From Hymenopellis radicata (lineage: Eukaryota; Basidiomycota; Agaricomycetes; Agaricales; Physalacriaceae), in assembly GCA_015501595.1 (NCBI GenBank), contig JADNRX010000026.1, forward strand, positions 1-64,000: DNA of 64,000 bases, given 5' to 3'. How positions within the stretch are numbered: position 1 is the first letter of the stretch; each line of letters opens with the position of its first letter. The notes under the pieces were generated by a model. That model saw only the letters and a program-made list of their open reading frames with translations. It was not told the origin of the DNA and did no database searches. Below, in pieces: positions 2,163 through 11,803 of the stretch. Position numbers and translations under genes: made by a program.

Positions 2163-5100
2163 ATGTTGTACGACGAACCTAGCGCCAATTTAAACATCAC
2201 ACCGACCCGCGCGGGAGTGCGCCCCTCCTTGAGCTACTCGTACCAGCAAGAGAGTGCCGCTACCATGAAGGAGGCTGTTAACACTGATTTCCCCGTCCAC
2301 TGTCGTGTCACCGACACCGACCAGTTTCTGAAGGTTATGTTCCCCGTCGAGGACACACTTGTTGACGCCATTTGGAAGAAAGTCAAAGTGGTGCATCACC
2401 CACAATCCCGATGGAGCGCCTTTCCCGAATCAGTCGCCAAAGAGGATGAATTGTATGGCGCCTTCGTCTCTGTCGCCAACGCCATCCACAACGCCGCGGA
2501 AGAGCTCTGCCCACACCATCCCGGTGAAAACACCGCTCGACTTGGAGGGTCGACCACGTGGGTCGACTACCACTCAAAATCTCCGAACTCTGTCGATAAG
2601 GATATTGCGCGGATACGACCGGATTGTCTTCTTGCACATAGTCTTCTACATGACCGTGTCCAGACTTTACCTCCAGTATGCCAATCATCCCTCAGTTCCA
2701 ACGAGAAACTAACGTTATCTGTAGGATGACGCCACAGTTCGTATTTTATCAAGTTCGGGGGCATGAAAGGCTGACTGTGTGTATAGGGCGTAATTTGGTG
2801 GTTACAAATCGTCGCCGCGCTGGAGATGAAGCGTAACGACAAGGAAAAGTGGGAGGGGGTGGTCAAGCAGCTTATTGGCTATCTGCGGCAGATATTACGC
2901 GAGCAACTCGATCGTCGATTCGTTTTCGGTTTTACTCTTGGACCACGATGCATGGCAGTATGCCTCCACGACCGATCCGGCGTCCTCCTTACTAGTACGC
3001 CTATTGATATCCACAAGGTGAGTTCTGTATTCGACACGCATCGGTCTAGAATTCACCTATTGGGCTTAGTCACCGAAAAACTTTATCCGTATCATCGCTG
3101 CCTTTGCGGTCCTTGCTCCTCACAAACTTGGCTTTGATCCCTCCATGAAAATCTATGTTCAGCCCAACGAAGTGGTGGAGTCTTACCGATTGACGAGTGA
3201 GACGGCGCTTGACGTTTTTGCGACTGATTCGTACAAGAAGCGCTGGGTCATCACCCTCAATGACGGTACACAGTATTTGACTGTCAAAGTGATGAGTGTT
3301 GCTCGTGCGAGAGTAATGCGTGGTAGGGCAACATTGGTTTGGGCGGTGGTACGCTTCGTAAATGGTCGACCCGGCACAGAGGTACACATTGAAATCTGGC
3401 TTCGAACCAAACTCACGTCTTTGATTAGGTCTTCGTTCTCAAGCAGTCCTGGCGTCCCGAAACAGTCAAGTCCGAAGGCGAGTTCTACAACGAGGCGAAG
3501 GGTTCTGACTGCAGTCATCTTGGTCGAATAACGCTGTGCGAGGACGCCGTAGTCGACGATATGGTAGATCGGACCGGGTCTTTCATACGTGCGGGTCTCT
3601 CCGCGAGCTTGCCGCCAGGTGTCAACCAAGAACGCGGAACGAAGCGTGCACGTGCGGAAAGCGAAGAGCCTTTCCTTCATGTCGCATCGACGAACGATGA
3701 CGAAATCGAACGCATCACCACTCCTCGAGAGAGACAGTATGTTTCTCGCGTTCACACGCGCGTCATTATGTCGACCTATGGCTGGCCGCTGAAATATTTC
3801 GCAACGTTGAAGGAACTCCTCTCGGTGTTCTTGAATGGAGTACAAGGTATAATTGTTTCAAATATACAACATCTCTCTGACAATAATGACTTGCAGGACA
3901 CGCATATCTGTACGAGAATGGTCTTTTACACCGTGATATTAGTGCAGGAAATGTCATCATCGCATGGTGGCCGAGTGAAGGAGCAACTACTCTTGGCACC
4001 AGAGGGTGTCTTATTGATTTCGATCGCTCAAAGCTCGGTACTCGAAATCCCAGGACGCTCCCTCAGTTTCAAACCCAAAATAACCCGCTAACAGCGACCC
4101 AACTTACTATCCGTTCTGCCACACTCCTTGATTACTTTCAATCTCGTAAGGACTCGCCGCTGTCAGTATCAGTGCAGCCGGACGTTATTTCGTCTGCGGA
4201 TGATGTGCTCGGGGCAGAGTATAACAATTATACGATTGCGGCCATCAGTTATAGTCTAGCATTCCCTCCGGCCCCGGAGAACTATACCATTACAACAGAT
4301 CGGTTAGGATGGCGCACGGTATGTCTCATTGAACATTTTGGTATTCATGCTCATACATCTTCAAAGGTTGCACAGTGTTTCGACTTTAACACCTCCATAA
4401 CTGCACCGAACAATGCGAAAGACGGCCCTAAAGGATCCAGGACTGTAAGTCCCATCTTGCGAACCTTCAAACTAATATTAACTTCATTCTTTCTAGGGAA
4501 CACCTCCTTATGCCAGTGCAGAAATTCTAGGACGCGTCAAATATGGAACTATCTCGGCAGAAGTCGAATATCATGATGCAATCCACGATATCGAGTCATT
4601 TTTGTGGATCTTGGTCAACATCTGCCTGACGCGCAGTGGACCTCGCGGCGCTCGTCGTACGGAACTCACAGAAACAGACCCTGGGCATGACATGCTCCGC
4701 CGAGTGGTCTATTATGTCTTCGACAGTGATGAGCCCGATCTCATAAAAAACAAACGGCGTCTCTTTGCCGAACCTAGCGCCTTCGAGCGGGACGTCGTGG
4801 GCAATTTCCATGCCTATTTCCACGATCTCAAGCCCCTCATTCGGCAATGGTTCAGTCTCCTTTGCTTGGCGTACAAGCACCGCGAGTTATACGAATATCA
4901 CACCCTTCACGAAAGGGTCGTTGATCTGTTGAAGAAGGCAGTGGTAACTGTGCCTTCCGAAGAGGATCACGATGATCAATTTGCAGCAAACGTCTTCGAG
5001 GAACGAAAGAAGGAGATCAGCGACCTGTGTTTGCTGTCTGCTACTAGCAGTACATCAAATGCTGCACACTCGGACTCACCACCGATTGCAACGACTTTCC

Positions 5101-5174
5101 AAACACGTTCACAACAGCGGGTACCTCCAGAGTCTCCGACTCCGCATAAACGAGCTAAAAAATCAGTACGATAG
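2163..5174 (+). CDS. FunK1-type fungal protein kinase
   Basis: A multi-exon kinase of the FunK1 family, which is expanded in mushrooms and mostly of unknown substrate. After a variable N-terminal part (exon from 2163), the exon near 2790-3015 carries the family block ending RRFVFGFTLG...DRSGV. The catalytic loop HRDISAGNVI is at about 3925-3955, with LIDFDRS in place of the usual DFG region. GTPPYASAEIL (about 4498-4530) and HDIESFLWILVNI (about 4587-4625) follow, all in the expected FunK1 order. The C-terminus is basic (HKRAKKSVR). Likely introns include 2676-2724, 3018-3085, 3848-3895 and 4446-4496. The reading frame in the track begins at a GTG; I chose the in-frame ATG at 2163. The essential motifs are all present, so the kinase may be active. 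Exon edges in the 3000-3560 and 4320-4370 parts are approximate. Confidence 0.82.
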
Positions 5175-6757
5175 TCGAAGATAGTCGTTCTACGAAGCAG
5201 TACAATGTGAAATATTTAGAACATGCTAAGGTGCTTCAATTCCAATCGCCGCCGTCAAGCCTAGGTATCTTATGAGTAACATGGCATGTCGCGAATCGTC
5301 CGTTCGGCTTACCCATGACTTCAAAGAATTGCTTCGCATACCCCGAGCTGAGGGGAACGAATAACATGGACCACCTATACAGCAGTTTTGAAAAGAGTTC
5401 AATAATCTGACTTCGAAGAGAGACGTACTAATCATAACTGCTTCGGCCTCCTTCACTATTACTGCCCGTTGGAGAGACGCCACCGGTAACTGCATTGAGG
5501 AGAACCTATCGAAGTATCAGTACATTGGTAGCCTCGTAGCTACCCCTCTTCTTGCGCATCTAGGGAGAAGTGGACACAACGAAAGTAAATGTAATGTGCT
5601 CATCAACAATTCACTTCTCTTATCATCATCTCATTCACCACTTGATCACCTTGGGTTCAGGCTGAGAGCTATCCGCGCTCTGAGTCAGAAAAGTTGTTTC
5701 TTACTAGCACGTGGCATGAGCGAATCTGACGAAGGAAGTTATAGTTAGCGCGTGCGCCACCACCACCTCGGATTGATTTGTACGCGTGGCAGACGAATAT
5801 GGCGAACCAGACATACTGGCGCCTGTGTAGCATATAGTGAGGAGAAATTGTGAATGACCACGGCCAGGCCCTGGGAAACTCCCCTAGGACTCCGGCGATT
5901 TTGGCGGATTTGAGGGTCCACCATGTCGATCGGATGTCGTTGGCGGGTTTTCGTTTGGTTTTCGTAGGGCCCGACACTATGGCCCGGAGAAAGTCTATGG
6001 CTCAAGCGCTCAAGCTCAAGGTCTGCATCAGGTCTGGACTATCGACGTTGACGACAGCATTACGCGGTGACGCAATAGTCATCGACTTCAGATGATCGTC
6101 AAAGACAGTGACATTTTGTCCAACCAACGTGCGGGCATACACTTAAGTAACACGGCAGAGGACGACAATTTGAAGCATTTATCATTTCAACGTCCCATTC
6201 ACCTCTGCATTTAATCGGCTATCCTTTGTGGTCCAGGGGGATCAGGTTCGCATTATAAGGTGGTGTTGGATCAAGTTGAAGTTCTCGGGGGTCCTGCCAT
6301 CACTTCGCACTCACGTGGATGACACGTGAGTGCGAAGTGGTTTCCAGAACCCGAGAACTTGCCCCCACCCCGAACGACGCGAACGATGACAGTTCCGGAC
6401 TCATCGATTAGGGTTTGAGACTTCATCTTGTCGTGAAGTGTTTGCTCGGATTGTAATGTCTGGGCCAGCTGCGTGGACGCGTTGAATAAAACAAAGGCAT
6501 CTCGTCGACTTCACTCACGTTCTGCATTGCGAGCCCGCTATCGAATTTCTTGTCAACAGTGCGCAAGAGCTCGTCCTCCGACGAGGCATGTATCAAGCGT
6601 TCCAGTAGGGAATCCGTCGTTTCAAAAACTTGCTGGAAGTTGTGAATCGGCCTGTGGTGAGTATTCAGATGCGGTCACCCAGGAGAACAATCAAAAAATG
6701 CATACTCTTGTAGGTACGGAAAATGGCCGAGCGCCTCAATCTCGACGATGCGGTCTC
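5175..6757. other. Intergenic region with a long hairpin
   Basis: I recognise no gene. Short open frames occur on both strands without family resemblance. The region holds the strong inverted repeat at 6279-6360. Its right end, from about 6470 on the minus strand, may hold the worn start of an NLR-like gene (see findings). Confidence 0.45.
6279..6360. repeat. Long inverted repeat (hairpin) with CACGTG in both inner arms
   Basis: Inner arms of 17 bases, CACTTCGCACTCACGTG at 6301-6317 and its exact complement at 6323-6339, flank a five-base loop. Outer arms AAGTTCTCGGG (6279-6289) and CCCGAGAACTT (6350-6360) pair again after a short unpaired bulge. Each inner arm carries CACGTG, the core of the E-box bound by bHLH factors of the Cbf1/Pho4 type. 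It could be a remnant of a palindromic element, a structured RNA or a paired binding site. No coding sequence overlaps it. Confidence 0.85.
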
Positions 6758-8947
6758 TCAGTTCTTCGCGCGCCGCAGTGTTCTCATACCGTGTCTAGAA
6801 ACGTTCATCAGCCTCTTTCTCCACTGTAGAAAAGACTGAGGACACACAGCGAAAGCTTTTACAGCAGCACCCACAGCCTTTGGTATTGCCGACAGAGGAG
6901 CCACTTGAACCATGAGGATGTCCTGTACAGCAGTCGCGACACCGTACGGGACATCCCCATGGTTCAACTTCGGCCATCGAGGTGGAGATGAAGCACCATT
7001 ATCAGAAAAAGACACAGATGTAATGCAGTTAGTATGGCCCTGTAGTAGTGTAGTTGGCGTAATTGGGACACTGCCGCTTCTATTGGACGAGGCGGAATCG
7101 TAATGAATGGTGGACGTAGAATCGTACGCAGAACTGGTGAGCGGAGCCGGCACCTGCCGTCTACAAGGTGACAACAGGTCTATAACTTCAGAGGCTCGGC
7201 GTAAGACAAAGGTATTCCGCGAACGATCGTTGAACGACTTACGGCGTTTCCCTGTGTACGTCTCCCTCAGCTGTTGGAGGCGACTTGCTACTTGCTTTAC
7301 GGTGCATCTGCGTCCTGTCTTCCGGTATATGTACTCGGAAATAAAACGATTTCTCATAGGGAAACGCCCGAGAAGACGCGTTTCCCGCGAATCATCTGGT
7401 TGATACTTTTCCAGACCTGCTGGGCGATGAGTTGAGAACGACAATGGAGCCACTGAACCCACCCTCAATCAAGGCAGCTTCCAATTCTGCAGGCCAGACC
7501 ATTTCACCACCTCGTAATGTCTTCCAACTTTTCCTTCCTATATATAGAAAGACCCCCATGGCGCCTGAACCATCTGGCGTCTTCAGGTTATTATTACTGC
7601 TCGCTCTGGACGACCTCGGTGAAGGGGTTGAAGAGGACTTGCGATACGACGCCCGGGACGTGTTGGGGTGGGGAGCGAAGCTAGCAGTAGACAAGAATGG
7701 TTCAGGCGCCTTCAGGTTATTATTACTGCTCGCTCTGGACGACCTCGGTGAAGGGGTTGAGGAGGCCTTGCGATACGACGCCCGGGACGTGTTGGGGTGG
7801 GGAGCGAAGCTAGCAGCAGACAAGACCTGCTCGCAGAGCTGGGCAACAAGCAAGGTACTACCACTGGGACCCCCGGGCTCCAGTAGCTTCTGCAACTTTT
7901 CCCGCTGCTCGTCTTGGGATAGTGTACGATGTAGAGGTGAGATGAACCTGACGACGGTCGCAGCGGAGAGGCATAGTCCGCCTGCTCGGAGTGTAAGTTG
8001 TGCGCGCTTGTTGGTGTCTCGCAGCTCCGTGAGCTTCTCGGCGAGAAATTTGGCAATATCGTCTTGGACGTCGACCAATGGTACCTCGTGCAGATGATAA
8101 ATCATGTCCGCTAGAAGTTGGAAGGAATGGCAGAGGTCGACAATCTCGGGCTGTGGGCGACGTGTAACCAGAAACTTGATCCCTGTCAGGCGCTTGTCCC
8201 CTACTACGCGAAATAGGTTCTTCAAGAACTCCACGCCATTATCGTTTTCATCGAGAGCATCGATGACGACCACTGGTGCAGGTAAACCATCCCGTTTAGG
8301 AAGCGACGCGGACCATGGCGCGACAAGGAGGTCGTCGATCTGCTCATGGATCCGAGCCTCGCCAAGGACGGAGTCTGCTTGTAGGACGGGCACGAGCTCA
8401 GTCGCATTCGAAGGGAATAGTTCTGCGAGGTTACGGCAAATCGTTGGCACAATGAGCTGAGAGTCCTTGCTGTCGGCCCACATGCGCTCGCAGATGGTAT
8501 AAGCAATGGTGGTTTTGCCTGTTCCCGCGAGGCCAGTGAGCCAGAACACAGACGGGGCGTCGGCGTCGTTGGCTCGAGCCCAAGACATGATCTTGTCGAT
8601 GGTCTCGACTCGAGTACCGGATGTGCATGGACCACGTAAGAGCGTGTCAGTCTTGATAGATGCACGGAACGACGCGCGTGTCGTAACATAATATTGAGAG
8701 TCTTGAGGATCAAACTCGTCCTGACAGAGCTTGTCGCGGTCACCATCAAATGGAATTTCAGGTGGAAAGTCGCAGGTCGAAGGTGTTTCCCAATGATCCT
8801 TTTCGAGGTTAGCACTTGACGGCAGATTCGTGCTGAACCCAGCGTTTCCGCCTTCAACATCTCCAACGAGTGGCCCTATTTGTTGTTTCTCCACAGTTTC
8901 TGAATCTCCAGAAACAGACGTGTCTTGCAAGATGGCAACCCCTGTGA
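6758..8947 (-). CDS. NACHT NTPase fused to a TEA/ATTS DNA-binding domain
   Basis: One long exon (to about 7463) encodes a NACHT module: Walker A GLAGTGKTT (residues about 133-141), Walker B VVVIDALDE (220-228) and the sensor-like LVTRRP (254-259). Compared with mushroom NLRs, the FFFSR-like strand between Walker A and VPTICRNLAE is missing. A Ser/Pro/Asn-rich linker with a 43-residue duplication follows (371-456). The exon ends in KSWKTLRGGEMVWPAELEAA, the first TEA helix. A 46-base intron (7462-7417) joins in frame to LEKYQPDD, GRFPMRNRFISEY and KQVASRLQQLR, the rest of the TEA domain. No WD40 or ankyrin array follows, only a Ser/Thr-rich tail with one WD40-like stub, GHTNCITSVSFSDNGAS. The 5' end is unresolved: the first codon of the frame is not ATG, and an acceptor at about 8948 implies an upstream exon, perhaps 8995-9089. 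Inferred role: nucleotide-regulated transcription factor. Confidence 0.72.
7581..7827 (-). repeat. 129-bp direct tandem duplication inside the NACHT-TEA linker
   Basis: Two nearly identical copies (7581-7709 and 7710-about 7827) differ by only a few bases and keep the frame. Each encodes a 43-residue unit containing FAPHPNTSRASYRK and TPSPRSSRASSNNNL. Such high identity indicates a recent duplication or ongoing homogenisation. The units are rich in Ser-Pro and Arg-x-x-Ser motifs, so they could be phosphorylated. Confidence 0.93.
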
Positions 8948-9231
8948 GTGTACATTCCGGAACCAGTCAGCGCGACGCTCTGCTAAAATAGATAGACTTG
9001 CCGTTGTGGATAATGGTCTCGCGTTCCGACATGATCTTGCGTACAAGACGAGGACCATCAGGAATGGAGGTTATGTGTGCCATCCACATGCGGTCACTAA
9101 CAATTGCTATGTGTGCTTCGGGATTCTATAGATGTAACTTTTTAGATGCGATGCCTGATCGACAAAACTTTACTGACTGTGTCCAGAATACCATTGCTCA
9201 AACGCATGGCAGGGCTAACGAACTGCCGAAC

Positions 9232-10477
9232 TCAGATCAGCGCCTGCGTTTGGTATGCATTCAAGAGATAGCAAGGTCTCACCGTTTCTAGAAACAAGTT
9301 CAAACAACTCTCATCTTCGTCTTCATCCGAAGATTCATCGGCAGTCTGGAAATCCAGCTCTGGCAAGAGGTCGTCCAGGCTGAGACTGGTCATAGATGAC
9401 TGAGGGGAGTTGCATTTCGATGAAGAAGGCGAGCTACTTTTCGATGACGGAGGGGATGAACGTCTCGAGAAGGAGTGCCCCCAAATGGGGACCTCGGAGA
9501 CGACGAGCATAAGAAGGATGGGTAGTTGTCGTGAGGAGACCCTTTTATCCAGTCCGTCCGCACTGTGCCACTCAACTTGGACACCACTTCGAGATTTGCG
9601 GAAAGATATGGTTAGTCCTCGCGCGAAGAGACATTGATTTTCTGTGGAGGACTATTCTGTGCAAGATCAACACCTTGTGGCGGATAGCTTCGTGTGGTGG
9701 TTCCTGTGCTCCCGCTCCAGGACGTCCTGTACGTAAAACCCGCACCAACACTGAATGCGGAGAACTTGAGTGATACTTCAACTGAACTGGAGGGCTTGCG
9801 AGCTACAGCTAAGCCCCACGTGGGCGCTTTGTCGCACCCAGTAACAAGGTAGAGAGAACCATTAGGGAGATGGTGACCAAGGTCGTCAACGTATTCGCGC
9901 CAAGATTCCGCATACTTTTCAGCATATCTCTCGTAGAGTTTCTCGTTCATGGCATCGTATCGGGTCGCTCCATCAGGAAGCATCAGAAATGCTTCTTGTA
10001 CCCTTGACGTACTCAGCTCGATGCTGGCACTCCCACCAACGCCAACAACTAGACTGTGGCAAACAGTCAGTCGTAGGATCTTCGGATTGAGAGACGGGAG
10101 ATGCGCGTACGGTGTTTCAGCTGATGCTTCCATGTTAAATGAAGTGGCGTGCTCGTCATTAGCGGCAACCGTGGCTCCTACGTTGTAGTAGTAAGCATGC
10201 TCGACGGGTGGACACGATTGGGAATTTTAAGAGGCTCGAAGTTGGTAGGAACGTTGCCGGCATTCAACTCATGGTCGGCAGGTGCATGAACGTTGAACAG
10301 GAAGTTGTACGAACCCTCTTCTGTGAGGATAACGAGGTCACCAATGCTGAGACCTTTTCGCCTGAAGCTCCAAGGCGAAGACCTAGAGGGCCCTGGGAGA
10401 AAGAAGGGAACGCCATTGCCTTGGCGTAGCATGCAGCCGCGATAGATTACGCACGGCCTCTGATCTTGAAAGCTCAT
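9232..10477 (-). CDS. Uncharacterised Agaricomycete family protein
   Basis: A protein of a large mushroom-restricted family without assigned function. The order is: GDLVILTEEGSYNFLFNV (start exon, ATG at 10477), then after an intron LMLPDGATRYDAMN and a helical part ending ESWREYVDD. NGSLYLVTGCDKAPTWGLAV and NQCLFARGLTISFRKSR follow, and an acidic tail (DESSDEDEDE) ends the protein. These are hallmarks of the family. The step into NQCLFARG near 9655-9685 needs either a very short intron or one missing base, so the gene may be slightly damaged or misread. Cysteine and tryptophan positions suggest a compact cytosolic domain. There is no signal peptide or membrane segment. It lies upstream of the NACHT-TEA gene on the same strand. 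Confidence 0.7.
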
Positions 10478-11803
10478 GGTTGGTTCGGGAATGGGTGGCC
10501 AGACAGGACGGGCTGGGAGGAGTGATAAAGGACAACTGAAAGCCGACTCTCGTTATATGCTGGTCCCCCACAGCCTTCCGAGCTAAATCTACATAGAACG
10601 TACAGCTGTGACATCAATCTCTAGCACCGCTCGTGGGTACTGTTCTTGGTAGAAACAAAGCTCGAACGGCGCATATGTCGAATGCCAGTGAGAGCGATAA
10701 CGAATCTGAGGACGTTGAGAGACAGTCGCCCCGAATAAGTGTTTGCATAGATAAGCAGACCATGGCAGGAGTTGGGCAGGTGTATGGTCGTCAAAAGTAT
10801 TTAAGTAACACGGGTATGGAAGAAGAACAGATCTTTACGAAACTTGCGTGGCAGTTGAAGATGGAACCTGAGGAAGCTGCAGTCAGCAGGTCTCTTAAAA
10901 ACTGATGAGTGCTACAGTGCCCAACACTGGTTTAATGGAAGGAGGACCTACTGCAAGCGAACTTGCCACTGCCTCAACCTGCCTCAAGGCCCCAGGAAGC
11001 TCCCCTACACCGCCGGCGAGCCTCAGAGCCTCAAGTATTCAAAAATCACTGGGGATGATGTCGCGTACTGTGATGACAGTTACACACCTTGAAAATTCGA
11101 TTTTCTTGCTGCTCGGCAGTGCTGGGCGCCGTTGTAGGTTGATTTACCTATCATACGACCGCGAAACCAGGACGAAACTGCGCATCCACACTCCAAAACC
11201 ATAGCTCTGCCAGGTTGGTGTTGGAGGTCCTCCTCAGCCTCTGAAATATTCAACACTTCACTGGGCTTTGGGCTCTCAGAGCCTCAAATATTCAAATATT
11301 CGCCGCGATTTTGGCTCATTTTGGTCCTCGAATATTCCATTTTTCGCCGGCGGTCTAGGGGAGCTCCCCGGGGCCTCTGCCTCAACACGTATTTAGCCGC
11401 GAGTAATGTCGAACCAGCCACTCTACGCCGATGGTGGTGGTGGTGGATAGCCTTCGTTTATGGTGGTGGTTCGTATCAAGGAGCAAGTCGGCACGTGCCG
11501 TTCAACCAACATCAACAGCGCCACAGCGAACACTTCAGAACTTAAACACACAAAGAGGAGGGGGAGCACCAGGCACTGCTTCCTTTTGAGCAGGCCGTTC
11601 GCAAAAATATACGATTCCACTTCCTCCCCACCCCAAAAATCCCGTGTCCTCCCAGTGCAAGGCAGCAACTACGGTACTTTGACTACGGATGTGTATGTAC
11701 CAGATAAACAGAAGCACAAGCTAAATAAAAAAAGAAAGAGTACAAGTTACTGATGCTAACGATGAATATGTGCACTTTGCAATAGATAATTGATACAGAG
11801 TCC
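10478..11803. other. Intergenic region with AATATTC motifs and TGG microsatellite
   Basis: No gene is recognised. A plus-strand frame at 10633-10905 is acidic and open for 90 codons but matches nothing I know. A (TGG)n run lies near 11432-11448. The AATATTC cluster at 11025-11345 is listed separately. Confidence 0.45.
11025..11345. repeat. Dispersed-repeat-like cluster of AGCCTCAA-ATATTC motifs
   Basis: Variants of GAGCCTCAAATATTCAAA occur at about 11026, 11235, 11280 and 11323, the last as CCTCGAATATTCCATTTTTC. They are separated by similar G/C-rich words such as CACTGGGC. This looks like a worn non-autonomous repeat. No terminal inverted repeats or target-site duplication could be fixed by eye. 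Confidence 0.4.

Follow-up and report, generated by a model that had tools for sequence, protein, structure and literature searches.

The described systems closest to the locus analysed here are the fungal NACHT-WD40 NLRs, the Agaricomycete TEA regulators, the plant NLRs with integrated domains and the chimeric genes of Helitrons. Fungal STAND proteins of the NACHT-WD40 family, exemplified by a 1200-aa open frame on contig C213 of Hymenopellis radicata and by the protein P0122, share Walker A and B motifs and, over the NACHT part, 77-83% DNA identity with the locus, and on C213 and C507 the open frames run from NACHT to WD40, as is usual. An initial annotation of this DNA held that the C-terminal ends of known fungal NLRs are formed by WD40, ankyrin or TPR arrays, which is too strong, since in the available portion of the survey PMC4986451 about half of the N- and C-terminal domains are without known annotation. 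Term counts over the accessible main text of that survey and of PMC9815663 gave zero occurrences of "transcription factor" and "DNA-binding", and a literature search covering titles and the starts of abstracts found no combination of NACHT with TEA. The TEA regulator BDZ89DRAFT_315790 (P0001, 460 residues, contig C530 of H. radicata), the parent of the TEA part of the locus, shares with it the TEA domain, both introns and 92-95% DNA identity. Plant NLRs with integrated domains, e.g., RRS1-WRKY as presented in the available part of PMC8685902, are alike in that an NLR module is linked to a DNA-binding domain of the regulator type.

The locus departs from these systems in several respects. Relative to the P0122 family, it has no counterpart to the N-terminal region of P0122, lacks 14 residues following the P-loop and is without the part downstream of NACHT and nearly all of the WD40 array; relative to BDZ89DRAFT_315790, it has neither the start codon nor the part after about residue 175 of 460, and its recognition helix region is altered. 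Unlike the plant receptors, it combines an altered NACHT with the absence of a repeat array, and it occurs in one genome only among the matches listed. Judged from sequence, the five-segment predicted gene is probably (roughly 0.7) a drifting chimera of recent origin and not a functional sensor-to-promoter protein.

A predicted gene with NACHT and TEA domains

The window, by which we mean the whole 64-kb stretch of DNA analysed, corresponds to the first 64 kb of C585, one of the 1405 contigs in which a genome of 75.5 Mb is assembled; the locus is close to where this contig begins. The public gene model BDZ89DRAFT_381450 (P0121, 936 aa) carries both PF24883 (NPHP3_N, NACHT-like) and PF01285 (TEA). 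In a spliced mapping with GT/GC-AG introns, P0121 fits exactly onto nine exons of the minus strand (9510-9283, 9222-9178, 9125-9002, 8941-7463, 7419-7243, 7185-6848, 6794-6706, 6651-6519 and 6468-6274), and its stop, a TGA, follows immediately after 6274; this exact mapping indicates that the NACHT-TEA fusion is real as sequence and as a public gene model. The model probably originates from PMC8480192, the available part of which describes 14 new Agaricales genomes, including that of H. radicata, and an annotation improved using RNA-seq. The locus had initially been delimited as 6758..8947, an interval that contains NACHT and TEA but is exceeded on both sides by the predicted gene (9510-6274).

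All NACHT and TEA features of the locus are on the minus strand. A single exon of P0121 (8941-7463) contains both NACHT and the first TEA half, which have one stop-free open frame in common, and the NACHT-TEA frame remains open across the joint, the duplication and the introns described below. The earlier observation that two TEA halves flank a 46-nt GT-AG intron (7462-7417) and continue in frame from the NACHT module holds, and the public model joins the two domains.

Protein searches with either part returned the pair only in P0121. With the TEA part as query, no other NACHT and TEA protein was present among the best 120 of 244 matches listed; with the NACHT part, for which the 7998 candidates sharing most words were scored, P0121 alone has TEA among the best 120 of 541 matches listed. 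All 12 long TEA proteins were compared as well, and an NTPase domain was found in P0121 only. The initial annotation had proposed to look for the same domain order in other proteins, and these searches gave it no counterpart among the matches listed. The NACHT-TEA mosaic gene model has so far been found in one species, and the domain pair, although new, arose in a known manner.

Five adjoining segments with copies in the same genome

BLASTN of window positions 4500-11500 against copies from the same H. radicata genome resolved five adjoining segments, all on the minus strand and each with its own best match elsewhere in the genome. Segment 1 (8677-10799), which gives exons 1-3 plus the beginning of exon 4, is 90% identical to C918:17264-19385, and a whole-genome search found no further long copy of it besides this one. 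Fifteen indels separate segment 1 from the C918 copy, 11 of them not multiples of three and hence frame-breaking. An informative Pfam match was found neither for the gene family of segment 1 (C918 relative, C918:16500-21500) nor for segment 5. Segment 2 (7813-8676) is the NACHT-like (NPHP3_N) module, related to the NACHT-WD40 NLR family, with 80-83% DNA identity to ten of the 11 family copies compared by BLASTN and 77% to the eleventh; at the protein level it matched at least 200 residues at 15 other places in the genome, with 63-84% identity. On contig C213 (141 kb) this NACHT family is represented five times, by copies or partial copies, of which two contain stops. The H. radicata proteins P0127 and P0169, discussed below, come from a contig of the same length.

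Segment 3 (7053-7797) is the first part of the C530 TEA regulator gene, with both introns and without the start codon, and is 94.7% identical to C530 over 7053-7668 and 91.7% over 7702-7797, the latter being an extra repeat copy. Segment 4 (6993-7040) is a 48-bp WD40 repeat remnant, 83-91% identical to NLR paralogs and equivalent to about 15 residues of one repeat (PF00400, 15.8 bits, E 0.022, under the cut-off of 27), and segment 5 (6407-6993) is 80% identical to both C1268:12646-13231 and C551:82434-83019. A recent chimera had been named as an alternative in the initial annotation, and this composition bears it out: each part is a diverged copy from the same genome, and no other listed protein has both domains.

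At the joint 8677/8676 the C918 and NACHT matches abut without filler, and about 15-24 bases separate the NACHT match from the TEA match. Part of this spacer is similar to the bases immediately preceding the C530 start codon, and the 14-base match suggests that 33 bases, including the ATG, may have been lost between two CCCC runs at the NACHT/TEA joint. A tandem duplication on the minus strand (7573-7696 plus 7702-7825, together 7573-7825) has a spacing of 129 bp, is in frame and has copies that are 96% alike; since it spans the NACHT/TEA joint, the duplication is later than the joint. Three indels were found in the NACHT-TEA frame relative to the source copies (42, 129 and 6 bp), all multiples of three, and such a three-for-three outcome would occur by chance alone about once in 27. 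The pieces would have been assembled by duplication and end joining, and one transcript may be made across the locus, as suggested by the public model, which joins the parts.

Alterations in the NACHT and TEA parts

The NACHT-like NTPase lies in an open frame at 7392-8966, minus strand (PF24883 NPHP3_N, 45 bits, E 1.7e-11), and PF05729, NACHT itself, reaches 22.1 bits, under its cut-off of 26.7. Walker A (GLAGTGKTT, 8508-8534, residue 269 of P0121) and Walker B (VVVIDALDE, 8247-8273, residue 356), both on the minus strand, had been called intact; both motifs are indeed present, but the NTPase core is without 14 residues between them. These residues are missing after the P-loop, at a 42-bp in-frame gap (8470-8480, ~8475, minus strand) where the paralogs carry KNKLLVSFFCSRQL, a stretch that we take to be a core strand of the NACHT fold and that, among the 120 NACHT proteins compared, is absent from just P0121 and its H. 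radicata paralog P0127. P0121 breaks eight of 61 near-invariant NACHT columns. The other 119 NACHT proteins mostly break two at most (114/119; 76 none, 22 one and 16 two), with two proteins breaking three and single proteins breaking five, nine and ten, the last two being the H. radicata proteins P0169 (9/61) and P0127 (10/61). The NPHP3_N score is 43.2 bits in P0121, compared with 76.0 in the paralog P0122.

At sites where all 11 paralogs agree, changes private to the window fall 7, 7 and 2 times on codon positions 1, 2 and 3, respectively. The controls were mixed: C213b (5, 2, 6), C640a (8, 4, 15) and C1391 (5, 2, 11) lean to position 3, C1304 (6, 6, 2) and C213c (13, 10, 13) are without such a lean, and the remaining six have two to five changes apiece. 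The pairwise dN/dS of the window NACHT against the paralogs is 0.26, inside the range of the others (0.19-0.31), and largely mirrors shared history.

Structure prediction, proposed as a check by the initial annotation, gave a model of P0121 with a mean pLDDT of 50.4, for which the best fold match had an E of 0.11 and none reached significance at 0.001, so that structure supports little. The control P0122 has a mean pLDDT of 69.9, with its P-loop region also of low confidence. In the AlphaFold models, the P-loop helix has six residues in P0121 and 16 in P0122, with the same 41 proteins aligned and low confidence in both.

The TEA domain (7259-7505, exonic 7505-7463 and 7419-7259, minus strand) scores 74.7 bits with PF01285 in P0121, compared with a cut-off of 25.1 and with 89.6 bits in the C530 parent, and its second half lies in an open frame at 6758-7468, minus strand (E 7.7e-16). 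The first TEA intron (7417-7462, 46 nt, GT-AG), common to the parental TEA gene, is 43 nt long in the public model (7462-7420), which takes the other acceptor of a CAGCAG pair; the second (7186-7242, 57 nt, GTAAGT...GAAG, minus strand) is also in the parental gene and was absent from the initial annotation. The retention of both parental introns indicates that the TEA piece was copied as DNA rather than from mRNA, and a retrocopy of the TEA gene is ruled out, both intron sequences being present. The copy stops at about residue 175 of the parent's 460, and the parental C-terminal remainder is absent. BLASTN found no similarity between the 9.9-kb stretch around the C530 TEA gene and the stretches around three other TEA loci of the genome.

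Relative to C530, the TEA exons contain 16.5 nonsynonymous and 4.5 synonymous differences, giving a dN/dS of 1.19. The introns have changed somewhat more than the exons (7 of 103 sites, compared with 21 differences over about 507 exonic sites), and exons 2 and 3 taken together have changed at 8 of 307 sites. Four residues differ from C530 in the aligned TEA stretch, where P0002 and P0003, from other sources, retain the C530 letters. A Cys (codon TGC, 7304-7306, minus strand) stands where all 120 related TEA proteins have Arg, an Ala where 119 of 120 have Gly and one has Ser, a Tyr where 117 of 120 have Cys and one has Tyr, and a Val where the column is Ala in 104, Pro in 14 and Thr in 2 of the 120 relatives. 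The Cys position aligns with an Arg of TEF-1, and, read from this alignment, the substituted Arg would be in or next to the DNA-recognition helix, which in TEAD is helix 3 according to the available text of PMC12672301. As Ala is also found at this position in the distant TEA of C518, the Ala-for-Gly change may have little effect. Overall, the window TEA breaks three of 52 columns conserved at 97% or more; among the 120 other TEA proteins 99 break none, 14 one, five two, and one each three (P0114) and four (P0117), so that the window TEA is not the worst.

Readings of the mosaic and its neighbouring elements

The mosaic fails defining features of both the NLR and the TEA families. It has an NTPase with Walker A and B and is without the intact core and C-terminal repeat array of a NACHT NLR; it has the TEA domain and is without the conserved recognition helix region and parental C-terminal part; and, as an NLR with an integrated domain, it has the copied domain and is without an otherwise intact NLR. 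With changes in both its recognition helix region and its NTPase core, any protein made from the young chimera would be a poor binder of TEA sites and a poor switch, which would leave the locus with little or no present function. The open frame, the frame-keeping indels and the greater change in introns than in exons leave room for a function, but are too few to establish it.

Among the other readings, the one that survives best, although unlikely, is that of two transcription units or a model artefact, in which NACHT and TEA stand in one frame by chance and never in one mRNA; two adjacent genes had also been named as an alternative in the initial annotation. Gene models can fuse neighbours, and most of the indels between segment 1 and its C918 copy break the frame, both of which would fit this reading. 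However, the window copy has not retained the start codon of the TEA parent (although a start may lie within the NACHT part), the NACHT and TEA matches are separated only by the short spacer described above, and exon 8941-7463 spans NACHT and the first TEA half.

Somewhat less probable again is a captured bait, in which a TEA copy carried by an NLR traps a molecule attacking the real TEA regulator and DNA binding is unnecessary. The genome still has the related TEA gene at full length, the TEA copy is in frame with the NLR module, and in plants, according to the part of PMC8685902 available, the integrated WRKY of RRS1 may mimic DNA-binding domains targeted by effectors. If this were true, the TEA copy, freed from DNA binding, would be the sensor, an attacker of the real TEA would trip the NACHT, and the locus would be a fungal counterpart of plant receptors with an integrated WRKY, caught at birth. 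The altered NACHT and the loss of the repeat array argue against it, as canonical NLRs keep both.

A one-step sensor-to-transcription protein, in which a NACHT switch controls a DNA-binding TEA domain, was the reading put forward in the initial annotation, and we regard it as quite improbable. One predicted protein has both TEA and NPHP3_N scores exceeding the Pfam cut-offs, together with Walker A and B, and its frame runs open through joint, duplication and introns; but Cys replaces the Arg of the recognition helix region that is constant in the 120 relatives, the parental part after about residue 175 and the 14 residues after the P-loop are missing, about 15 residues are left of the WD40 array, and the pair was found in one genome only among the matches listed. 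An assembly error joining unrelated copies is the least credible reading, for although the assembly is split into 1405 contigs, with the locus near the start of one, the segments differ by about 5-20% from their best copies and the 129-bp duplication lies across the main joint.

Read as a young, drifting chimera, the locus shows, with joints placed within a few bases, how a new reading frame is built from NLR and regulator pieces, and related copies of these pieces are still present in the genome, allowing comparison. It also shows that two domains paired in a public gene model can represent a single mosaic event instead of a new sensor class. Should the fusion prove to be expressed and maintained in populations, this would raise the question of fungal integrated bait domains.

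Helitrons have a 5' TC end and a 3' end with a hairpin plus CTRR. Chimeric genes of Helitrons, as described in the available parts of PMC4289320 and PMC3288121, resemble the locus in bringing several host-gene fragments together; in the mosaic, the fragments are all in one orientation and the TEA introns are kept. Helitron replicase gave 35 matches in the genome, none of them on C585, and a search of the flanks returned MITE copies and some partial matches, with no shared element ends seen. Helitron capture is thus not supported, there being neither a replicase match on C585 nor defined ends.

At 10987-11376 lies a MITE-like element, present in many copies in the genome, whose inverted ends measure 33 bp, and a single MITE end of a related family with more than 30 genome matches lies at 5866-5921, resembling the end at 10987 and having the same orientation; the sequence of the two does not show them to bracket the mosaic as one element. 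An inverted repeat with 30-bp arms and five bases between them (6288-6352) is close to the end of the gene model at 6274. Beyond the gene, two overlapping plus-strand open frames (3890-5174) have matches to PF17667, a family of fungal protein kinases, that of the second frame being under the cut-off.
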